The notes: generated by a model from the letters alone, not told the origin. 64,000 bases of DNA from an uncultured Methanobrevibacter sp. (GCA_902774685.1 CACYJH010000008.1:62001-126000), one strand, 5' to 3'. Shown: positions 31,961-45,251, counted from the stretch's first letter. A program made the numbers and translations.

Positions 31961-32920
31961 TTAGAAAAGATCCTTAAAGTCCTTTTCTAAATTGTTTAAA
32001 TCTATTACTCCTTTTTCTGTAATGATTCCTGTAATCAAGTCTTTAGGAACTATATCAAAAGCAGGATTGATTACTTCAGTTCCTTCAGGACAGATTCTTG
32101 CACCACCATAATAGATCACTTCGTTAGGATCACGCTCTTCAATAACTGTATCAAATATGGAAATCTCCTTATCAAAGGTACTGAATGGCGCTGCAATATA
32201 GAATGGAATGTCAAATCTTTTAGCTGCAAGAGCCACCATAAATGAACCTATCTTGTTTGCAATACCATCGTGAGCCACTCTATCTGCACCGATAACAACC
32301 TTATCAATTTTTCCTATTGACATAAGGTAACCGCTTGCAACATCAGGAATAAGCTTTACAGGAATTCCTTCCTGTTGCATTTCCCAAACGCTTAAGCTTG
32401 CACCTTGTCCTCTTGGACGGGTTTCATCACAGATGACTTGAATGTCCTTTCCTTGATTGAATGCAGAACGGAAAACACCTAATGCAGTACCATAGTCTAC
32501 ACATGCAAGTGCACCTGCATTGCAGTGGGTTAAGACTGTATCTCCATCATCAATAAGTTCAGCACCATATTCGCCAATAGCTAAGTTTGTATTGATATCT
32601 TCGCCAGCCATTGCCATTGCTTCATCAAGCATATTATCCGCTTTCATGACTCTGTCTACCGCCCACATAAGATTGACTGCAGTAGGTCTTGCATTTTTCA
32701 TCTCTACGGCGACCTTTTCCATATCTTCACCTGCAATCTGAGCAAGAGCCATACCGAAGGCAGCTGAAACACCTATAGCAGGAGCTCCACGAACAACCAT
32801 GGTCTTGATTGCATCTATTACTTCCTGATAAGTGCTGCAATAGACATAAGTCAATTCATCAGGCAATTTGGTTTGATCTATAAGCTTTAATTTATTGTCT
32901 TCCCATTCTAAAGTTCTCAT
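31961..32920 (-). CDS. mtnA: S-methyl-5-thioribose-1-phosphate isomerase family protein
   Basis: Isomerises methylthioribose-1-phosphate to the ribulose form in methionine salvage; relatives include ribose-1,5-bisphosphate isomerase and eIF2B alpha-type proteins. VVRGAPAIGVSAAFG near 43, LTHCNAGALACVDYGTALG with catalytic Cys near 145 and the GADRVAHDGIANKIG segment with catalytic Asp near 225 match MtnA. The start is the ATG at 32920 with GTGAT upstream, not the GTG at 32929 that overlaps it. Confidence 0.88.
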   Translation of the reverse strand: MRTLEWEDNKLKLIDQTKLPDELTYVYCSTYQEVIDAIKTMVVRGAPAIGVSAAFGMALAQIAGEDMEKVAVEMKNARPTAVNLMWAVDRVMKADNMLDEAMAMAGEDINTNLAIGEYGAELIDDGDTVLTHCNAGALACVDYGTALGVFRSAFNQGKDIQVICDETRPRGQGASLSVWEMQQEGIPVKLIPDVASGYLMSIGKIDKVVIGADRVAHDGIANKIGSFMVALAAKRFDIPFYIAAPFSTFDKEISIFDTVIEERDPNEVIYYGGARICPEGTEVINPAFDIVPKDLITGIITEKGVIDLNNLEKDFKDLF

Positions 32921-33140
32921 AATAATCACATGAAAAATAATTAATAATAAAAATAATTAATTAATGAAATAAAAATTGTTAAAATACAATAAAATATTGG
33001 TCTTTTTTAAATAAATAGATTATTATAAAAAAATAGTTAAAAAAACTAAAAAAAGCAAAAATAAGTAAAAAAAATAAGTAAAAAAAGTAGATAGGAAAAA
33101 TCCTATTTAAAATAAAAATTTAAAAACAATCATTTATCGC

Positions 33141-34031
33141 TTAGAAGTGAGACTGAGGAGCATTTCCTAAGTGATGGTCTTCGTGTTTCTTTCCAGGAAT
33201 TCCATAAGCATCCGCTCTGCATTGAGTGCATGCTCTGAATACTGGAAGATACTCTTCCACATCACTACGTGCCTTTTCAATCTCTCCACAACCAGGTCTT
33301 GGATAATCAGCCATTTTGTTTAATGGAATGAGTGGAAGAACATTCACTAAGTCTGCACCGCATTCCTTAACGGTTTTAGCGATTTCTACAATATGCTCAT
33401 CATTCAATCCAGGAATAAGAACAATGTTGACCTTAACGACTACACCAAGATCGGTGATCTTTTTGATTCCTTCCAATTGGTTTCTGGAGAGAATTTCAGC
33501 TGCTTCAAGTCCTTTGTATGCTTTGCCTTCATATACAATGAAGCCATTGATTTCCTTTAGGATTTCAGGATCCACTGCATTGACTGTAACAGTTACGGTA
33601 TTTACACCAAGCTCTGCAATTCTTTCTGCATATTTTGGAAGCAAAAGACCATTGGTACTCATACATTTGATTAAATCCGGCTTTACCTCATTGATCTTTT
33701 CAAAGAATTCAAAGGTAGCCTCATTAGCTAATGAATCACCAGGACCTGCAACACCAACAACAGTGATTGCACTGTCTTTAGTTACATTCAATACATGTTC
33801 CACTGCAGCATCTGCATCCATAATGGAACCTGCAACTCCTGGCCTGTCCTCTTCAGTATTAATTGATCTTATACAGAAGTTACATCCAATATTACATTTA
33901 GGAGCAATAGGTACGTGAACTCTTCCAACCTTATCATGCAATTTTTCATTATAGCATGGATGCACTTTTGTAATATGTGCAAATTTTGCACCTTTATGAC
34001 TTCCTCCACAAGTTAAATCTTTTTTAGTCAT
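33141..34031 (-). CDS. nifB: NifB radical-SAM protein (iron-sulfur-carbide cluster assembly)
   Basis: Builds the [8Fe-9S-C] L-cluster, precursor of nitrogenase cofactor. 296 residues, the stand-alone archaeal form. HPCYNEKLHDKVGRVHVPIAPKCNIGCNFCIRS (near 25-57) holds the radical-SAM CxxxCxxC; VGVAGPGDSLAN follows. The C-terminal ACTQCRADAYGIPG is also typical. It lies on the same strand downstream of marker genes 17/15/5/6/3. No nifHDK is in the window, and many methanogens without nitrogen fixation keep nifB. SD GAGGTAAT. Confidence 0.95.
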   Translation of the reverse strand: MTKKDLTCGGSHKGAKFAHITKVHPCYNEKLHDKVGRVHVPIAPKCNIGCNFCIRSINTEEDRPGVAGSIMDADAAVEHVLNVTKDSAITVVGVAGPGDSLANEATFEFFEKINEVKPDLIKCMSTNGLLLPKYAERIAELGVNTVTVTVNAVDPEILKEINGFIVYEGKAYKGLEAAEILSRNQLEGIKKITDLGVVVKVNIVLIPGLNDEHIVEIAKTVKECGADLVNVLPLIPLNKMADYPRPGCGEIEKARSDVEEYLPVFRACTQCRADAYGIPGKKHEDHHLGNAPQSHF

Positions 34032-34456
34032 AGTATTACCTCAACACAATATTTAAATTAATATAATTATTTTAATTAATCTAATCATTTTAATTAATCT
34101 AATCATTTTAATTAATTGATTCATTTAATTAACTTAATTTTTTCTCCAATTTTAATTTATCCCACTACAATTTACAAAATTTATTCGTTAAATATCCATT
34201 TACGCTTAAACTTATAACTATTGTTATTAACAGTATAGTATTTAAAGCTTCCTATTTGTTTCTAATACATACGAACAAACTATTGGAAATTACGAACCGT
34301 TTGAAAAAATCTATGAAAAATTGGACAAAAAATTAAAACAACCTTAAAAATAATTAAAAAATAATAAATAATAAGATTGAATCTTTTAAAAGACTTAAAA
34401 ACACACATCCTCTTTTAAATCTTTAAAAAAGATTAAATCCTTTCTATAATTTGAAA
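34032..34456. other. spacer between marker protein 17 gene and nifB
   Basis: Contains an 18-bp tandem repeat (34071-34124) near nifB and an imperfect inverted repeat around ACTATTGTTATTAACAGTATAGT (about 34216-34240). It could hold a separate nifB promoter, so nifB may not be in one transcript with the marker genes. Confidence 0.45.
34071..34124. repeat. 18-bp tandem repeat, three copies
   Basis: TTTAATTAATCTAATCAT occurs twice exactly and a third time with changes, in the nifB leader region 40-90 bases before the ATG. It might be slippage-generated, or a set of sites on one helix face every 18 bases. Confidence 0.6.
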
Positions 34457-35023
34457 TTAATCCCAAGTTTTAGGGGTGTTCAATTCTACAATATATCCTT
34501 CAGCCTTTTCAACCCATTCATCCTTAATGAGTTCATCAGTAGCTATAACAGAAACGATATCGTCACGGGAAATATCCTTCATTATCTTGAATCCTTCAGG
34601 AACTATTCTGAATATTGCATCATAGATTCTTCTTTTAAGGTTTTCATGAGGGTCATCTACAACCAAATCAGAAACATTATGCTGTCCTTTCATATGAATC
34701 ACATATCTGCTTGGCTGATGGACATTTTCCCTGCCGTTGGTATTCCAGAGGGTTCTTAGGATATTCGGAAGATAGTTTTCATCATCTATCAAAACAACGG
34801 TTGTATCATCATCCGCTTCATAATTTACTTTAGCAACTTCCTTTAAGGTAATGTGTTTGGAAGTCTTTCTCATCTTTATCGCTATGATGAAGCAGACTTC
34901 ATCCGGATTGACATAAGCTCTCATATCATCAATGGAAGGTGGCAAGACCAAATCCTGCAAGATTTGCCTAATGATCATGTCGTAGACTTTTGCTCCTTCA
35001 GGGTCATTTGATTCAATATACAT
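34457..35023 (-). CDS. methanogenesis marker protein 17
   Basis: 188 residues. Sequence such as YIESNDPEGAKVYDMIIRQI and the context, last of a five-gene run with markers 3, 6, 5 and 15, identify it. Marker proteins of this set have been found in the ATP-dependent complex that reductively activates the nickel of methyl-coenzyme M reductase. No cysteine motif is obvious, so it may be structural in that complex. SD GAGTGAT before the ATG. Confidence 0.85.
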   Translation of the reverse strand: MYIESNDPEGAKVYDMIIRQILQDLVLPPSIDDMRAYVNPDEVCFIIAIKMRKTSKHITLKEVAKVNYEADDDTTVVLIDDENYLPNILRTLWNTNGRENVHQPSRYVIHMKGQHNVSDLVVDDPHENLKRRIYDAIFRIVPEGFKIMKDISRDDIVSVIATDELIKDEWVEKAEGYIVELNTPKTWD

Positions 35024-35103
35024 AAAATCACTCTACTTAAAATAACAAATAAAATGAAAATAGATAAAAATATTTGAAATATTTAAATCCAATCCAAAAT
35101 TAT

Positions 35104-36339
35104 TTATTCATGTCTATTTCCCATACCAGATACAAGCAATGCTGCACCTACAGCACCAATGTGTTGTGAGTATTCTGGCACGATAACTTCAATTCCACCT
35201 AAAGTTTCACTTACAGCTTCAACAAGTCCGGAAATCAAACTGGTTCCACCTACTTGGATTAAAGGTTCACGGATGTCAATTTCCTGTAATTGCTGTTCAT
35301 ATACCTGTTCAGATACGGAGTGACATGCAGCAGCTGCTACATCTGCCTTAGATCCTCCAGCTGCAAGAGTGGTAACCAAGTCCTGAATACCGAATACAAT
35401 ACAGTAGGAGTTAAGCATAGCCTTTCTCCAGTCACCTTGCACAGCAAGAGGTCCAAGTTCTGTAATGTCTACATCTAACCTTCTTGAAGTCATGTCCAAG
35501 AATCTTCCGGATGCACCTGCACAGATACCTCCCATGGTGAAGTTGTCAGGAATACCATTGTTTACGGTAATTACCTTGTTGTCCATACCACCGATATCGA
35601 GTACTGTAGCTTCACCTTTTTGACAATCTGCCAAGTATACTGCACCTTTTGCGTTAACAGACAATTCCTCTTGAATAAGTTCTGCTCCAAATTCCTGACC
35701 CATAGTGAACCTACCGTAACCGGTAGTTCCTATACCCTCAACATCTTCCCATTTGTAGCCTGTGCCTTCAAATGCCTCTGCAGCTGCAGTTTGAGCAGAT
35801 GCAATGATGTCTTTGGTGGAAGTCCAACCAGTTCCAATAACCTTGTTGTTTTCCATAAGGACCGCTTTTGTAGTTGTTGAACCTGAGTCAAGTCCAAGAG
35901 TAAGTCCTTCTTGCTTTTCACGAGCAAGAATGCTTCTACGAGTAACAGTGGTCGCCAATGCTTCCATACGGATGAATAATTCATCTGCTTTTGTCCTTTC
36001 AGTGAAGGAATATGTTACCACAGGAATACGGGTATTGTTTTGAATGAAACGTCTTACTTCATTTCTAACAAGTGCTCCTTCTGCACATCTGAAACAAGTT
36101 GCAATAAATACTGCATCAGGTTTGCATTTTCCTTCTACAATAGACATTGCTCTTGCAATCATAAGCTTTAAGCTTGAACTTTGAGCAGAGAAACCGAATT
36201 TCTCATAAGCTTCATTAATATAATCCAAATCAATTTCAGGAAGAATAATTTCAGCTCCAAATTTTAAAGCTGCCTTTTCGATTTCCTTTTGGATACCACT
36301 ATATTCAGTACCGCAGGAAACCAATGCAATTTGTACCAT
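35104..36339 (-). CDS. methanogenesis marker protein 15 (BadF/HgdC-type ATPase)
   Basis: 411 residues. The N-terminal domain ([20 protein letters not shown]) is followed from about 140 by an ASKHA ATPase fold: [37 protein letters not shown] and [23 protein letters not shown] supplies a cysteine that in homologous activators binds an iron-sulfur cluster between subunits. ATP hydrolysis here probably drives low-potential electron transfer for MCR activation. The start is the ATG at 36339 because a GGAGG site lies eight bases upstream, inside the end of marker 5, giving translational coupling. Confidence 0.92.
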
Positions 36340-36340
36340 A

Positions 36341-36847
36341 TTATTTTCCTCCTTTATTTGCAATTGGTTCACCTAAAACATCACTGTCTCCTTCCAAGTC
36401 TCCTCCGCCACCCGGCAAGGAATCTAGGAATTCCATGATTTGATTTACCATAAGTCTTGTTCCATCTTCATCATCAGGGTATGTAACTTCCAAGACAGGG
36501 ATGTCTTTTTTACGTAAACAGAAAATAGATAATTCGTTTGTTCTTGCACATCCTACACAACCAAAACCAAATGGAGCGCCATCAACAATGATTGCTGCTT
36601 CTGCAGCATCTATAAGTGGTCCAATAATGGACATTCTTCCTCTGACTCCTGAAGGCACTTCAATAGCTGCATACTTCAATCCGTTAATCGGATCTTCTTC
36701 TGTAATGTTCATTGGAGGAGAATCAATCTCCGGGTCTTTAATCTTTTGTCTTATTTGTTTTTGAAGAGCTAAAGGAGTGTGACCTTTCCTCTCAATCAAG
36801 TCAGCTAAAACCAATGAATTTGGGGGATAAATAGCTACTTTTACCAT
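36341..36847 (-). CDS. methanogenesis marker protein 5
   Basis: 168 residues, starting [34 protein letters not shown] near 95 has a close Cys pair that may bind metal or an iron-sulfur cluster. The C-terminus is Gly-rich. It ends one base before the start of marker 15, and its last codons carry that gene's ribosome site. Part of the marker run associated with MCR activation. Confidence 0.9.
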
Positions 36848-36917
36848 AATACCATCCTCTTAAATAATCTCAAGAAAACTTTTACAAAATTATATCAATC
36901 CCATTTAAAAAGTTTTC

Positions 36918-37400
36918 TTATTGTTTATCATCCTCTCTTTTATTTTCTTCTTCTTCTAAAATCTCTTTGAAGTAATCAACAGAAACAGGTTCCTTTTTCT
37001 CAATTACAACTTCCTTAGGGTTCTTTAAAGCTTCACCAACATAATCAAGAATTCTGAATTCCTTTTCCATTTGGTGGAAACCTTCCCTTGGCCCATATCT
37101 GTGACCTCTGCATCTTCTTGGGTCACCTGGAGCAAAACCTCTTTCCTTTGTAAAAATTCCATAAGGATCTAATTTACGGAGTTCACGAATAGCTTCTCTA
37201 ACATATTCATCTTTTCCACTAATCATAGCCCCATAACAAGTCCATTTGATTGTAATAGGCAAATTTAACATGTGCAAGAAGTTTACAACTTCACTTTCAC
37301 TCACATTTGCCTTGGAACTTAAGATAATCATCCTTGTTGAAACTTCAGGATCCATATCCTCTTTACCTAAATCTGGAGTTATACATAAATTTGCAGGCAT
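36918..37400 (-). CDS. methanogenesis marker protein 6
   Basis: 160 residues. [39 protein letters not shown] and the Arg-rich [21 protein letters not shown] segment (near 90-110) are characteristic. The tail is Lys/Glu-rich. SD AGGAGG. It sits 11 bases after marker 3 and before marker 5, clearly one operon. Confidence 0.9.
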
Positions 37401-37411
37401 AATAATTCCTC

Positions 37412-38965
37412 CTAATCATCATCCTCGTAAACTTCATGAATATAAAGAGTGCTTCCGTCTTTAAGCTTGTTCAAGCCTTCAATGTTTCCAACAACTTCAC
37501 CAACAAGATTTGTAGCAGAGAACGGTTCACCGGTAGGTCCGAAATCAGTGGTGTCAATGGTTCTTATACCGACAAGTCCCACATTCTTCTTGGACATGTT
37601 TGTTACACCTATCTCTCCTGCTTTCATGACATCTGTTGGATTGTTTTCAGGAATGAGTCCCTTGGATTCCTCGCTATCACCATTGAACATGAACATGTTC
37701 ATGTCAGGAACTGCAAAGTAGACCTTCAATGTTCCAACAGGCTTTTCTGCAAGACCAGTGATTTTCTCAAGATACCATCTGGTTCTTGGAGCCTTATCAG
37801 TCAATTTGACTTTCAATAGCTCATCGCTTGCAAGACCAAATGTGGTTACTTCTCCAGCATCAATGATGCCAACAGTGCTTTCAGGTTCTTGGGTTACGAC
37901 AATTGCATCATCATCTTCATTTCCAGTTCTGATGTGATTGATGCCTAAGGCTTGAAGTTTCTCTTCAGCCTCTTTTTGAGTCATCATCATAAGCATGATT
38001 CTGTCAGGACTGCTTCTAACGGTGATGAAATCTCCCTCTTTGGCTATATCAAACAATTCCATACCTTGTTTGACTGTAGCCAAATTTGTGTGGGTTTCAG
38101 CTCTTACTCTGTCTTCTCTATAAATATAAACTCTACCTTTACCGAATCCATCATTTCTCAATGTAACTGTTCCTCTTTTACGTTCAGTGATTTCTTCCTT
38201 CTCCTTAGTTAAACCAGTCAATTCATAGAATCCTACAAATGAGTTGGATTCAAAACTGACTTCAATCTTATCATTTCTAATAAGTGAGAATAAGTGTTCA
38301 ACTGATTTAGGAGAATTGAAGTTAGGTTCAAAAAGAACATAAGTGAACAATTGATTTCCTTCCTCCAAAACTTCATCCAAGTTTGAACCGCCAGTGCTCT
38401 CTCTAACTGTACTGCGCTCAATTACAGGTTCAATGGCTAGGATTTCATCATCATCAGTTAATGAGAACAATGTTTTTCTTCCACCTATAACCCTTGCAAA
38501 GACTCCACGATCACTGTATTTTGGAACACCATAAACATTCCTGTGGTCATCCTTGACAAAAATTACGTGAGTGGCATCATTTGAAAAACCAGATAAGCTG
38601 ATTAGAACCTCATTGTCGAAATATGCAAATTCGTCATGTGATGGTTCAAAATTAGAGCTTACAGGACCAATAGCCACTTCATTAGATGTCTCCCAACGAA
38701 CATTATTAGAGATAAACTGAGAATAGTTTTCCTTGAAGAAATCAGTTAAAGGTTTTGATTTTTCAGAAACTTCCAATTCAATGAGAATACTTCCCTTAGG
38801 TGTTTTGATCTTATATTTGAGAATGTTACTTTGTATTTCACTTTCTCCTTTGATAAGACAAACGATACTGCCTTTCTTGTAAGGAGCATTTGAAATTTCA
38901 ATTGCATCCTTGATGGTAGAACCTTCAGGAATATCCACATCTTCTCCATTAATCTTAATTAGCAT
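37412..38965 (-). CDS. methanogenesis marker protein 3 (UPF0288 family)
   Basis: 517 residues, first gene of the marker run. The N-terminus [24 protein letters not shown] resembles a small beta-grasp domain; the body has [22 protein letters not shown] (near 265) and [19 protein letters not shown]. The start is the ATG at 38965 with AGAGG upstream; longer frames to 39010 have a non-family N-terminus. A component or assembly factor of the MCR-activating machinery by family knowledge. Confidence 0.9.
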
Positions 38966-39241: not shown

Positions 39242-39925
39242 TTATTCATAGAATTTACCTAAGAATTCCTTCATTCTTTGATTGTCTGATGAGAATACCT
39301 CTTCAGGAGAACCTTCCTCTACAATAACTCCACCATCCATGAAGATAATGGTATCAGACACATTACGAGCAAAGTTCATCTCGTGTGTAACAATTACCAT
39401 TGTCATATGCTCTGCAGCCAAATCCTTGATAACCTGCAAGATTTCACCAGTAAGTTCAGGGTCAAGTGCAGATGTAGGTTCATCAAAGAACAGAATATCT
39501 GGATCCATACAAAGTGCTCTTGCAATAGATACCCTTTGCTGCTGTCCACCAGAGAGCTCAGAAGGATATGCATCTTCCTTATCTGACAATCCCATCTTCT
39601 TCAGCAAGTCTCTTGCATGAGCGTAGACCTCTTCCTTGTCTCTTTTCTGAACCCTTATAGGAGCATTAGTAATATTCTTCATCACAGAATGGTGAGGGAA
39701 TAGATTGAAGTTCTGGAACACCAAACCAAAAGTTCCATCAAAATCTATTTCTCCACTGTCTTCAGTTTCCAAATCTGTAATGCACCTTAACAAGGTAGAT
39801 TTACCTGATCCTGAAGGCCCAATGATGGATAATACTTCTCCCTTTTCAACATTAAAAGAGATATCCTTTAAAACTACATTATCGCCAAAACTTTTTTTAA
39901 GATTTTTAACTTCCAATAAACTCAT
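39242..39925 (-). CDS. polar amino-acid ABC transporter, ATPase
   Basis: 227 residues. Walker [10 protein letters not shown] near 36, signature [15 protein letters not shown] near 124, Walker [15 protein letters not shown] and the switch His in VTHEMNFA. It powers uptake together with the permease (11 bases upstream) and the binding protein (40766), GlnQ/HisP type. SD AGGAGAG. Confidence 0.93.
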
Positions 39926-39935
39926 GATATCTCTC

Positions 39936-40589
39936 CTATGTATCGTAATAATCTAATCTTTTCTCGAAGCGTTCCATTACAATTGCCACAAGTGCATTGA
40001 ATACATAATAGAACACACCTGCAATCAATAATGCGGAAATAGATGCTTCAGCAGCTGCAATCTGCTTTGCAACAGTGAACATCTCTGGAATTGCAAGTAC
40101 AAATGAAAGGGAAGTATCCTTAACAAGTGTAATGACCTCATTGGTAATGGAAGGAAGCACTATTTTCACCACTTGAGGCAAAATGATTATGAAAAAGGTT
40201 TCTATCTTATTATAACCTAAAACTTGTGCAGCTTCATACTGTCCATTCGGAATGGATTCGATTCCTCCACGGAAAATCTCTGCAAAGTATGCAGCATAGT
40301 TGATTGTAAATGCAATAATAACTGCAACCATCCTGAATCCACTTGAAAGGGTGAACCCGAATATGTAATATGGTGAAAAGAATACAACAATCAATTGCAG
40401 CATCAATGGAGTACCTCTCATGATTGAAATATATGCTTTCATTAACATTTGCAATGGTTTAAAACTACTCATTCTTCCTGCGGCTACAGCCAAACCAAGA
40501 GGAATAGAGAATAATAATGTAAGCAAGAATATTTCAATGGAAGTACCCATACCCCACAGTAATTCTTCTAAAATTTTACTTAATAACAT
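39936..40589 (-). CDS. polar amino-acid ABC transporter, permease
   Basis: 217 residues, about five membrane helices. [32 protein letters not shown] and the EAAxxLG-type contact loop [22 protein letters not shown] (near 137) match HisM/GlnP-type permeases. It is followed after 10 bases by its ATPase gene. Confidence 0.93.
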
Positions 40590-40765
40590 TTAAATTCTCC
40601 AAAATTAACGCCAATGTTGAAATTTAATTAAATAAATTTAAATAAATCATTAAACAATCATTTAAATTCAATAATTTATTTAAACTTAAAAAATCGATTT
40701 CGAAAAAATTAGATTAAGAATAAAAAAGTTTATACATAATAAATTATGCATAAACTAAAAATTAT

Positions 40766-41596
40766 TTATTGGTTCATAATAAGAGAACCAGGAATACCGT
40801 CATCCGCATATTTTTGTGCAATTTTGAGAACAGTACCGTCTTCAAACATTTCATTTAAAGTGTCTTGAACTTGGTCTCTTAATTCTTCATTTCCTTTTTT
40901 GAATCCTACACCATATTGTTCAGAAGAAATTTCTTGAGGGATGATGTAGTAATCGGCAGGATTGTCTTTAGAGCTGATATCGTGTTGAGCTACACCAATA
41001 TCCATAGCTACTGCATCACATGCACCAGATTCTAAGTCCATGAATCCAGTGTTATAGTCAGCAACTTGAGTTAAGGTTTCAAAGGTGTCAGCTAAAGCTT
41101 TTTGATCTCCTTCAAGAGCAGCTAAAGCGGAAGAATCTTTTTGGGTTTCTACGATTTTACCTTCTAAGTCAGCGAAAGTCTTAATACCAGAGTCAGCTTT
41201 TACAACGAATATTTGTTTGTTGTTGATGTAAGGGTCAGACCAGGTATAGTCGTCTTCTCTACCGTTGATGGTAAATCCGTTCCAAATACAGTCGATAGAA
41301 CCGGATTCTAATTCTGCGTCTTTAGCATCCCAGTCTATTGGCTGTTTTACTAAAGTCCAATTGTTTCTGTCACAAACTTCTTGTGCTAAGTCTAAGTCAA
41401 ATCCTACATATTCCCCACTGTCATCTTTGTAACCGTATGGAGGGAATTCTGCATCGAATCCAACAACTAAAGTGTTTTCATCATTATCAACAGCTTGATC
41501 TCCGCCTAAGAAATCAAAGAATCCTGCACTGGATGCACCAATGACTAAGAATGCTAATAATGCGATTCCTATAATAATTCCTATTTTTTTATTCAT
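40766..41596 (-). CDS. polar amino-acid ABC transporter, membrane-anchored binding protein
   Basis: 276 residues. A single hydrophobic segment near the N-terminus (IGIIIGIALLAFLVIGASSAG) secretes or anchors it. The ligand domain starts LVVGFDAEFPPYGYKDDSGEYVGFDLDLAQEVC, typical of family 3 solute-binding proteins. The exact amino acid is unknown. The start is the ATG at 41596, six bases after GGTG; a GTG at 41605 overlaps that site. Confidence 0.9.
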   Translation of the reverse strand: MNKKIGIIIGIALLAFLVIGASSAGFFDFLGGDQAVDNDENTLVVGFDAEFPPYGYKDDSGEYVGFDLDLAQEVCDRNNWTLVKQPIDWDAKDAELESGSIDCIWNGFTINGREDDYTWSDPYINNKQIFVVKADSGIKTFADLEGKIVETQKDSSALAALEGDQKALADTFETLTQVADYNTGFMDLESGACDAVAMDIGVAQHDISSKDNPADYYIIPQEISSEQYGVGFKKGNEELRDQVQDTLNEMFEDGTVLKIAQKYADDGIPGSLIMNQ

Positions 41597-42110
41597 ATTT
41601 AACACCGAAATATTTTAATTTATAATATATTATAAATTAGATAGATAGAAAATCTAATCTACATAATTATTTAAGAAAATCATATTATATAAAATAGTGT
41701 CATTTATTCAAAAAAATTTTAAAAATCATACCAATAAAGCAAGTTATGGCTTTTAAAACTATAAAATAATAAATAATGTTTAAATTTTAATAAATTAGAA
41801 AATGAATAAAATTTGATAAAAATTATAAAACAATATACTAAAATTTTTTAATAAAAATAGAAATTATAGTAAAAATTAGTTTTATATGATTAGAACAGTT
41901 CAAAAATTGATAAATTAGAGAACTATGAATCGAATAAAAAGAAAATAAAGAACAAATAACTGTTTAAAATTTAAATAAAGAATTTTAAATTGAAATAGTA
42001 AAAAAATTGAAAAATTAAAAATTTAAAAAATAGATTAAAAAAAGATTTTAAAAAATATTTAATAAAAAATTTAATAAAAGATTTAATAAAAGTTATGAAT
42101 GATAAAAAAA
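41597..42110. other. 500-base AT-rich spacer
   Basis: Near the transporter, ATTAGAT and ATCTAAT (about 41637-41660) form a short inverted repeat that might be an operator. Toward 42110 there are several copies of ATTTAATAAAAG, T-rich on the minus strand, past the marker 2 stop. No gene. Confidence 0.4.
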
Positions 42111-43091
42111 TTATTCATTCATCTTCAAAACAGGATTTTTCTCTTGGCTAAATAAAACTGCCTTTTCATCACCATATTCTAAATAAAGCACTTTTTCTTC
42201 AATTACATCTCCCACTACAGCAACTTCAAATGAATATGGGCTTAATGTATCGATGATTTCTTGGCAATTCTCTTCTTTTGCAGTTAAAACGAAAGCAGCT
42301 CCAGGATAAGCCCTGAGCCAATCTTCCCATTCGACATTTGGATTTCTTGGAATCTTCTCAAGAGAAACGCAAGCTCCAACACCTGATGCCTCAAGCAACA
42401 TTTCCAAAGTACCGAGTGTTCCAGGATTGCTGATATCCTTTCCAGCTGTAGGAAGATGAGCCTCTGCAATTTCCTGCATTGCAATTATCTGATCTTGAAC
42501 CAATTTTTTATCCTTTTCATATGTGGTATCCCAGTTTAGAGCAAATTGAGGGTGTTGCCTTCCATCTGTATCAATGGCTACAATCACCTTATCTCCAACA
42601 CTTGCACCTGCAGAGGTAATCAATGAATCTTTCTTTGCAATCCCTGCAATTGCAACATCCAATGAATTGAATTCAGAATCCGGGTGCAGATGTCCTCCAA
42701 CCATAGGAACATTGAATTTCTTGCATCCATCAACAATACCCTGAAGAAGATCTTCATAGATTTCATCATCATTGATAGACATTGTATTTACCATAGCTAT
42801 CGGTTTTCCACCCATTGCAGCTATGTCATTAACATTTACAAGCACAGAACAATAACCTGCCCAATAAGGATTTACACTCATCAATTGACCCCAAATCCCA
42901 TCAGCAGCTAACAATATAACCTGATTATTTCCAATGTCAATAGCTGAAGCATCATCTCCAAAATCAAGGAGGACTTCGCCAGAAATATTATAGACTTCTT
43001 CCAAAGTTTTTGTAACCTTTTCAATAGAATTCTTACGACTGACTCCTACAAATTCTTGGAGTGATTTAACAAGTTCATTAAAATCCATCAT
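42111..43091 (-). CDS. methanogenesis marker protein 2 (AIR synthase-related)
   Basis: 326 residues of the PurM/SelD/HypE fold: [13 protein letters not shown] near 43, [27 protein letters not shown] near 88 and GGHLHPD near 138. Members of this superfamily bind ATP and activate a substrate phosphate or carboxylate. The reaction here is unknown. Two adjacent ATGs (43091, 43088) follow AAGGTG; the second has the better spacing. Confidence 0.88.
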
Positions 43092-43214: not shown

Positions 43215-45251
43215 TTATTCTTTTGAATCATCTGAATCATCTTCAGAATCTCCAAATTCCTCTTCTATATATTCTGCCCATCCATCATCTTCTTCCAATT
43301 CCTCTTGAGTTTCCTCTTCAATTGACTCTTCAGATGATAAATCGCTTACTTCCTCATCAAGATAAACCTCTTCAATTGGAGCATCCTCATAAATGATTTC
43401 TTCCACATCTTCTTCTACATAAATCTCCCCAATAGGAGACTCTGCAACTTCATGCTCCACATAAACCTCCTCAACAGGAGACTCAACAAGGTCATGCTCC
43501 ACATAAATCTCTTCTATAGGCGCCTCTGCAACTTCATGCTCCACATAAATCTCTTCTACTGGAGACTCAAATTCAGATTCTTCAACAGGAACTTCATCAT
43601 AATAGATTTCATCTTCAAGATATTCGTCACCATATTCCTCAGAACCATGTTCAACAATTATCTCTTCAAGTTCTGCATCGGAAATGTCTCCAACGTCATC
43701 TTCAAGATATTCATCTTCATACTCATCATCGAAGTAAATTTCTTCATCATCATAATTTTCAGATTCAAATCCATCTATAAAGTCATCTAAGTTATCATCC
43801 AATTGAGGATTTTCATCAACGACTGCATGATATGAATTGATTACATTATAATTATAATCCTTCTCAACAAAACTTGGAACGACTTCTGTCGCTTTTTCCA
43901 ATACACGAGATTTGAATACCTTAAACATGACTGTCTTGAATTCCTCTACAGACTCAGCCTCTTCATCGAATGGAATCTCCAAAGCATCTTTGGAAAAGAA
44001 GAGCTCTTCATGAATATATTGTCCGACAATATCATCGAAACCTGAAGCAACTTCCAGAATTGTTGATCTTTCATTTATGAAACCGCTTTCAACAACCTTA
44101 TCCAAGTCACCATCTGTAATTCCTATAATCGGAATATTGAAACGGTGCAAGATATCAGAAGCAACCAATGATGTGTCATCACCTACTGTTACAACCAAAT
44201 CAAAGTCCTTGAATTTAAATATGTCATAAGCTGCATGATCAACATAAGCCACCTTAAATGAGTAGTCGTCTTCAGAAATCTCTTCAGAATACATTACTCT
44301 TTCAGTATCGCTTATGGAAATATCATTTTTAGATAGAACACGTGGATTGACATTATCTGATTTTCTTAAAAGTCCTGTTTTGACAATCACTCTTTCCAAA
44401 TCAACAGGGCCTAATTTCTCCACACCATGATACTTCACAGTAGCATTAAGAATATCCACTAAGATGCCATCACGGGCAATGAGAACAATGGAATCTGCTT
44501 CGGAACGACCTACAACAATTCCGTTTATAAAAATATTCTCTCCTTCGCTGACTCCATGGATTTTACGATAAGTATAATGGCTGGTTTCATAACCCTCATA
44601 AGACTCCAATAGCTTTTCAATGGAATGTTCATCCTCTTTTTCCTGACTATTTGACAAGTATTGAGAAACAACATCTTCCGGCGCGATTTCAGTTAAATCC
44701 AAAGCTGCCTTTAAGCCATCAAACAATTCTTCAAAATTAAATGTGAGAGATTCAACCATATTCTTTTTGCCTAAACCTAACTTGGCCCTTTTGCTTTTTT
44801 TGCTTTTAGCCAATTGTTGGTTTAATGTATAATTCCAACTGATAATTGAACCGTCAGGTTCACCAGGCCTTTCTATTTGAATTACAGGAATGCTTGATTC
44901 ATATAATGATTTATGATTTGTAGCCAAGTAATCTTCATTGGAAATCTGTTTGAAATAATGCATAAACACTTTATAGCCAAAAACTCTTCCAGTTTCGGCA
45001 GATTTACCATAATTCAATAGGAAAATGACATCTGCATGGTCCCTATTGAATAGCTCCAATGATTGACTAGGCAATAATTTTAATGAGATGTCTATAACAT
45101 CCTCCAAACCTGCATCAATTACTGCAGTTCTGCCCATTGTTCCCCCTAAGCGACAACGAACATTTCCAAAACCAGATAACATATCAATGATTTTCTTGGC
45201 CCATCCAGAATCAACGATTCCAGGGCCATGTACAACCACACCGATTTCCAT
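43215..45251 (-). CDS. DUF2117 protein with acidic repeat tail
   Basis: 678 residues. The first 430 or so are the methanogen DUF2117 region: MEIGVVVHGPGIVDSGWAKKII, GNVRCRLGGTMGRTAVIDAG, FKDFDLVVTVGDDTSLVASDIL. From about 500 the protein becomes strongly acidic, with four consecutive 14-residue units of the form PVEEIYVEHEVAES, then degenerate ones, ending GDSEDDSDDSKE. The tail is probably disordered and may bind basic partners. No signal peptide or membrane helix. Function unknown. SD GGTGGGG. Confidence 0.82.
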   Translation of the reverse strand: MEIGVVVHGPGIVDSGWAKKIIDMLSGFGNVRCRLGGTMGRTAVIDAGLEDVIDISLKLLPSQSLELFNRDHADVIFLLNYGKSAETGRVFGYKVFMHYFKQISNEDYLATNHKSLYESSIPVIQIERPGEPDGSIISWNYTLNQQLAKSKKSKRAKLGLGKKNMVESLTFNFEELFDGLKAALDLTEIAPEDVVSQYLSNSQEKEDEHSIEKLLESYEGYETSHYTYRKIHGVSEGENIFINGIVVGRSEADSIVLIARDGILVDILNATVKYHGVEKLGPVDLERVIVKTGLLRKSDNVNPRVLSKNDISISDTERVMYSEEISEDDYSFKVAYVDHAAYDIFKFKDFDLVVTVGDDTSLVASDILHRFNIPIIGITDGDLDKVVESGFINERSTILEVASGFDDIVGQYIHEELFFSKDALEIPFDEEAESVEEFKTVMFKVFKSRVLEKATEVVPSFVEKDYNYNVINSYHAVVDENPQLDDNLDDFIDGFESENYDDEEIYFDDEYEDEYLEDDVGDISDAELEEIIVEHGSEEYGDEYLEDEIYYDEVPVEESEFESPVEEIYVEHEVAEAPIEEIYVEHDLVESPVEEVYVEHEVAESPIGEIYVEEDVEEIIYEDAPIEEVYLDEEVSDLSSEESIEEETQEELEEDDGWAEYIEEEFGDSEDDSDDSKE
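43411..43569 (-). repeat. 42-bp in-frame tandem repeat in the DUF2117 gene
   Basis: About four units of 42 bases, each encoding a 14-residue PxEExYVExxxxES segment. The DNA copies share long identical stretches such as CATGCTCCACATAAA on the plus strand, so expansion was recent and copy number may vary between strains. Confidence 0.75.

Follow-up and report, generated by a model that had tools for sequence, protein, structure and literature searches.

Conserved linkage of nifB to mmp17 in Methanobacteriales and Methanopyri supports a role for NifB in methyl-coenzyme M reductase activation

Methyl-coenzyme M reductase (MCR) is the source of nearly all biological methane, and its reductive activation was long an open question. 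NifB proteins, best known from nitrogenase, whose iron-sulfur core they build, join two [4Fe-4S] units and a carbide taken from SAM to form the [8Fe-9S-C] L-cluster. In a 64,000-nucleotide stretch of Methanobrevibacter DNA (the window), a nifB gene directly follows a set of methanogenesis marker genes, which raises the question of what enzyme its product serves. The initial annotation of this locus had proposed that the primary job of NifB is methanogenesis.

The MCR activation complex of M. maripaludis is composed of McrC, Mmp7, Mmp17, Mmp3, A2 and DUF2098, and carries three nitrogenase-like clusters bound by McrC and Mmp7 (PMC12176620, Nature 2025). Its authors noted that NifB is essential in methanogens without nitrogenase and probably makes the clusters of the complex (PMC12176620). 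A role of NifB in MCR activation is hence an earlier proposal; our literature search found no depletion, biochemical or genetic test linking the two.

The nifB locus and its neighbours

Searches of the window with NCBIfam profiles identified six minus-strand genes, mmp3-6-5-15-17 followed by nifB, in the order and on the strand previously described, with a gap of 425 bp before nifB. Curated cut-offs were exceeded by all five marker proteins. The block starts with mmp3 (37412-38965; TIGR03268, 3.9e-176), of an MCR activation complex subunit family, for which we retained the ATG at 38965; the frame can be extended to 39010 from a TTG, and the TIGR03268 match begins at residue 18 of this longer version. 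It continues with mmp6 (DUF2102; 36918-37400; TIGR03272, 1.9e-44), mmp5 (DUF2112; 36341-36847; TIGR03271, 3.1e-71) and mmp15, coding for an N-terminal domain and a 2-hydroxyacyl-CoA dehydratase activase (archerase) domain (35104-36372; TIGR03286, 2.4e-216). Then come mmp17 (methanogenesis marker 17, DUF2113; 34457-35023; TIGR03291, 3.1e-53; PF09886), also of an MCR activation complex subunit family, and nifB (33141-34031), encoding a radical-SAM cofactor maturase of 296 aa without NifX domain.

An mtnA-like isomerase gene (31961-32929, minus strand; TIGR00512, 1e-107, over the cut-off) is located downstream of nifB, as it is across the order. For MtnA-type isomerases, a part in salvaging the radical-SAM by-product 5'-deoxyadenosine has been suggested (PMC6079011), and a link between this gene and NifB turnover is therefore possible. 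On the other side, mmp2 (AIR-synthase-like; 42111-43091, minus strand; TIGR03267, 4.1e-133) belongs to the same block in relatives by gene order, and is split off in the window by a polar amino-acid ABC transporter (39242-41605). A homologue of this transporter lies between mtnA and nifB in G008 (L013:3874-5991). Between mmp6 and mmp5, Methanothermobacter (L019:5680-6051) and genera g6, g14, g16 and g19 carry a DUF2111 gene, of which the window's genus retains none, only 70 bp being left (36848-36917). A DUF2117 protein (43215-45251; 678 aa) bears a long, acidic and repetitive C-terminal tail; its Methanothermobacter homologue, of 341 aa, lacks the tail or has a far shorter one.

The marker set had been assigned to the MCR activation complex. 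For Mmp3 and Mmp17, subunits of the purified M. maripaludis complex, the assignment stands, whereas the main text of PMC12176620 says nothing of Mmp5, Mmp6 or Mmp15. Nitrogenase-type clusters are indeed reported for the complex, but they are bound by McrC and Mmp7, and neither of these, nor A2 or DUF2098, was identified in the window's block.

The absence of any further nif gene from the window was borne out and holds for its whole contig, on which there is no NifH- or NifDKEN-type match. Elsewhere in the genome (87% complete), NifH-family matches occur on contigs C13, C2 and C28 and the sole PF00148 match on C6. The two strong nitrogenase-superfamily proteins, on other contigs than the window's, correspond to CfbC and CfbD of F430 synthesis, and no nifHDKEN was found to accompany nifB. 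Similarly, the near-complete genus relatives G025, G031, G041, G054 and G081 contain no nifDK-like genes. Diazotroph nif clusters differ from this locus: their NifB is of the same family and presumably makes the same product, but they hold nifHDKEN together with nifB, while here nifB is linked to mmp genes.

Linkage of mmp17 and nifB in two lineages

We then located NifB and Mmp17 in 150 genomes of Methanobacteriales and combined the positions, scoring the genes as linked when nifB followed mmp17 on the same strand at a distance of less than 1 kb, and nifDK-like genes at E<=1e-30. Of the 131 genomes in which one contig carries both genes, 130 showed linkage, the lone exception being the fragmented genome G135 with a gap of 3.4 kb. 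No nifDK-like gene was detected in 94 of these 130 genomes, an absence that weighs less where genomes are incomplete. Adjacency hence extends to Methanobacteriales with and without nifDK and far beyond a single genome. Among 90 good-quality genomes of the order, NifB is present in 89 and nifDK-like genes in only 34. Linked genomes span 16 of 19 genera. Of the rest, g13 has the two genes separated, and g9 and g12, with the pair split over different contigs, count neither way. The distance between the mmp17 and nifB matches varies by genus: g18 shows a median of 22 bp, g19 of about 30 bp, g3 of 85 bp and g1, the window's genus, of about 430 bp. In a Methanothermobacter locus (L019, genome G017), the nifB frame begins 4 bp past the mmp17 stop. 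The Methanothermus-like genome G150 (L053) still pairs mmp17 with nifB, although mmp15, mmp5, mmp6 and mmp3 are no longer upstream.

Three irregular cases were set aside. An apparent NifB-MtnA fusion in G082 and a 1990-aa NifB frame in G011 both run through N stretches and were rejected. In the single-contig genome G020, the apparent absence of nifB was not taken as biological, since it coincides with that of mmp15, mmp17 and mtnA, and relatives have N stretches at the locus.

Such figures could reflect passive synteny, that is, a slowly rearranging block in Methanobacteriales whose NifB supplies some cluster enzyme unrelated to MCR; accordingly, the unrelated neighbours Nob1, Trm5 and DphB likewise stay near in the order. 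The nifB-mtnA junction served as a control. All 117 contigs carrying both genes have mtnA downstream of nifB in the same orientation, yet only 50 place it within 1 kb, the other 67 distances being wider (mostly 1-13 kb). The difference (130/131 versus 50/117) gives a Fisher p of 4.5e-27, for genomes that are related and not independent. Because the nifB-mtnA junction is broken in 67/117 cases and the mmp17-nifB junction in 1/131, the latter pair appears to be specifically kept rather than merely located in a slow-rearranging region, and we regard passive synteny as improbable.

Counts of genomes inside one order overstate the evidence because these genomes are not independent, and the independent lineages are few: Methanobacteriales, including Methanothermus, and Methanopyri. 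The latter emerged from a contig search with the crystallised Methanothermobacter NifB, which returned few relatives but yielded a Methanopyri MAG locus (L031), to which we added further genomes of its phylum, five in all. The order mmp5-mmp15-mmp17-nifB-mmp7 was found in all four Methanopyri genomes with NifB, the fifth genome of the phylum giving no NifB match. In L031 the longest mmp17 and nifB frames overlap by 26 bp. Further surroundings differ from those of Methanobacteriales. The kept core is restricted to mmp5-15-17-nifB, with mmp7 next, which again argues against passive synteny. Mmp7, a subunit of the M. maripaludis complex that thereby joins directly after nifB, is one of the two proteins binding nitrogenase-type clusters, the distal one being held at the Mmp7-Mmp17 interface (PMC12176620). 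In Methanopyri, nifB is thus flanked by the genes for Mmp17 and Mmp7, two subunits in contact at a cluster. Nitrogenase was found in none of the five genomes, each of which shows one weak PF00148 match in the CfbD size class.

The linkage is not universal. In g13 (L045-L052), nifB lies apart from mmp17 in five genomes bearing nifDKEN-type genes; in G098, the 8 kb after mmp17 contain no nifB, and the nifB genes of g13 are on other contigs. Methanocaldococcus nifB is also located elsewhere. In strain FS406-22, however, the gene sits outside the nif cluster and lacks the nif operator, and non-fixers possess homologues of it (PMC8809328), which favours the MCR-activation reading. The gene-order sample itself covers Methanobacteriales and Methanopyri. 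A literature search, which left out most subscription journals and preprints and is no proof of absence, found no earlier report of nifB-mmp17 linkage. New here are hence the conserved mmp17-nifB linkage and the mmp17-nifB-mmp7 arrangement of Methanopyri, the functional idea itself being already published as a hypothesis.

The NifB protein and the region upstream of its gene

The window NifB matches TIGR01290 over residues 21-286 (E 4.8e-83, 279 bits), below the cut-off of 343.65. The crystallised Methanothermobacter NifB, at 308 bits, is likewise below it, because the 441-position model includes a C-terminal region that these proteins lack. PF04055 is matched at 9.7e-23. The crystallised protein (PDB 7JMB/7BI7/7JMA), 65% identical to the window's, is similarly a stand-alone radical-SAM protein without NifX domain, and its sequence (7JMB/7BI7) matches the NifB encoded in L019 (G017). 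SAM cysteines, essential histidine and most cluster ligands are common to the Methanothermobacter, M. acetivorans and window proteins. In 13 aligned homologues we found invariant the radical-SAM CxxxCxxC motif (C46, C50, C53), H39, counterpart of M. acetivorans H43, which is essential for joining K1 and K2 (PMC7145814), the K1 ligands C26 and C123, matching M. acetivorans Cys30 and Cys129, and the K2 CxxC pair C268 and C271 with a candidate further ligand, C248. All nine Cys/His positions are kept in the NifB of Methanobacteriales, of Methanopyri and of a bacterium.

The third K1 cysteine (M. acetivorans Cys63) is by contrast missing from the window NifB, where Thr59-Glu60 (33852-33857) replace it, as in the window's genus compared with Methanothermobacter. 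Its equivalent is absent as well from genera g1-g5, g10 and g13, all Methanopyri and the bacterial L030, and present in Methanothermobacter, g6, g14, g16, g19 and the Methanothermus-like NifB. Such a loss, together with the low identity of Methanopyri homologues to the window NifB (36-38%), would fit a radical-SAM protein that has given up L-cluster synthesis for a different radical reaction, acting on MCR or on a subunit of the complex. This we consider extremely unlikely, as every other Cys/His position checked is invariant and relatives of g5 and g13 with nifDKEN-type sets do without the Cys63 equivalent too, indicating that the cysteine is not required in the family. For the same reason we rejected the idea that its loss tracks that of nitrogenase. 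The position varies within the NifB family and was not treated as defining.

In the window's genus, the 425 bp between mmp17 and nifB (34032-34456, minus strand) hold a promoter-like block kept among genus members, as seen in their alignment. It includes a TATA-like element, TTTAAATA (34239-34246, minus strand), starting 215 bp before the nifB start, with counterparts at -212 in G022 and -224 in G025. A tandem GTTCGTA repeat (34270-34297, minus strand) precedes it; motif searches matched it a single time in each of G000, G022, G025 and G031, invariably upstream of nifB, and never in 100 shuffles of the window. As a control with the pattern reversed likewise yields about one match per genome, weight should be given to the conserved place rather than to rarity. 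The element is a possible site for a nifB-specific regulator. We found no exact match to the NrpR-type operator GGAA-N6-TTCC within 500 bp upstream of the 25 nifB genes checked, which favours the MCR-activation reading. In published data, lauric acid induces M. ruminantium nifB by 2.6 log2, while mmp17 and other neighbour locus tags are not listed. From the conserved block and these induction data, nifB of the genus probably has its own promoter and is transcribed separately; co-transcription is doubtful here and the block is probably not one simple operon, which counts against that reading. Close spacing, on the other hand, suggests mmp17-nifB co-transcription in Methanothermobacter and Methanopyri.

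NifB as a probable cluster supplier for MCR activation

Could NifB instead serve nitrogen fixation or a nitrogenase-like enzyme, its place beside marker genes being incidental? Some Methanobacteriales do carry nifDKEN, and some gut Methanobacteriaceae (G022, L024:6701-10709; G021, L016:5169-10177) a NifH/NifD/NifK-like set that reaches none of the nitrogenase cut-offs and, in Methanosphaera-like g4 genomes, is followed by a second nifB. This set is a candidate second user of the NifB product. Its occurrence in three close relatives (G022, G094 and G137) means that it could be a further user there, which counts against an assignment to MCR activation. However, nifDK-like genes are lacking in 94 of 130 linked genomes and in Methanopyri, and the second nifB of g4 is an extra copy, the mmp17-linked one being kept. 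A purely nitrogenase-directed NifB is thus highly unlikely. In nifDKEN-bearing genomes, one shared nifB probably supplies both users. Separately, G148 (L026:382-2193) contains a tandem nifB pair. Identities to the window's gene are 63% and 75%, and the first copy diverges around the RPGV motif.

The block would then very probably represent the MCR-activation genes of Methanobacteriales, with NifB as a functional member supplying clusters to the activation complex. NifB would make the [8Fe-9S-C] clusters, whose most likely recipients are McrC and Mmp7, at the Mmp17 interface; the three clusters would pass electrons on to F430 nickel in a reaction driven by ATP. Within the block, Mmp15 shows the highest conservation (64% identity from the window to Methanopyri) and matches the HgdC-type activases 4EHT/1HUX, with both cysteines of the bridging [4Fe-4S] cluster aligned and present in all sequences inspected. 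We hypothesize that it is an ATP-driven electron donor, which may work in cluster assembly or in activation. More tentatively, and with less likelihood than not, mmp5-mmp15-mmp17-nifB(-mmp7) might form one assembly module: NifB would make the clusters, Mmp5 and Mmp6 would be carriers or scaffolds, and Mmp15 would supply low-potential electrons for assembly or to the activation complex, nitrogenase having borrowed the product later.

As to methanogenesis being the main job of NifB, gene order supports this but does not prove it. The linkage with and without nifDK, the mmp17-nifB-mmp7 arrangement and the reasoning of PMC12176620 all point in this direction; that the job is the primary one, we still infer. 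Linkage across an order and in a second lineage provides independent genomic support for a NifB role so far only inferred. Gene order also puts forward Mmp5, Mmp6 and Mmp15 as possible partners, and opens the question to testing. Finally, the linkage fits the proposal that the nitrogenase-type cluster first served methanogenesis.
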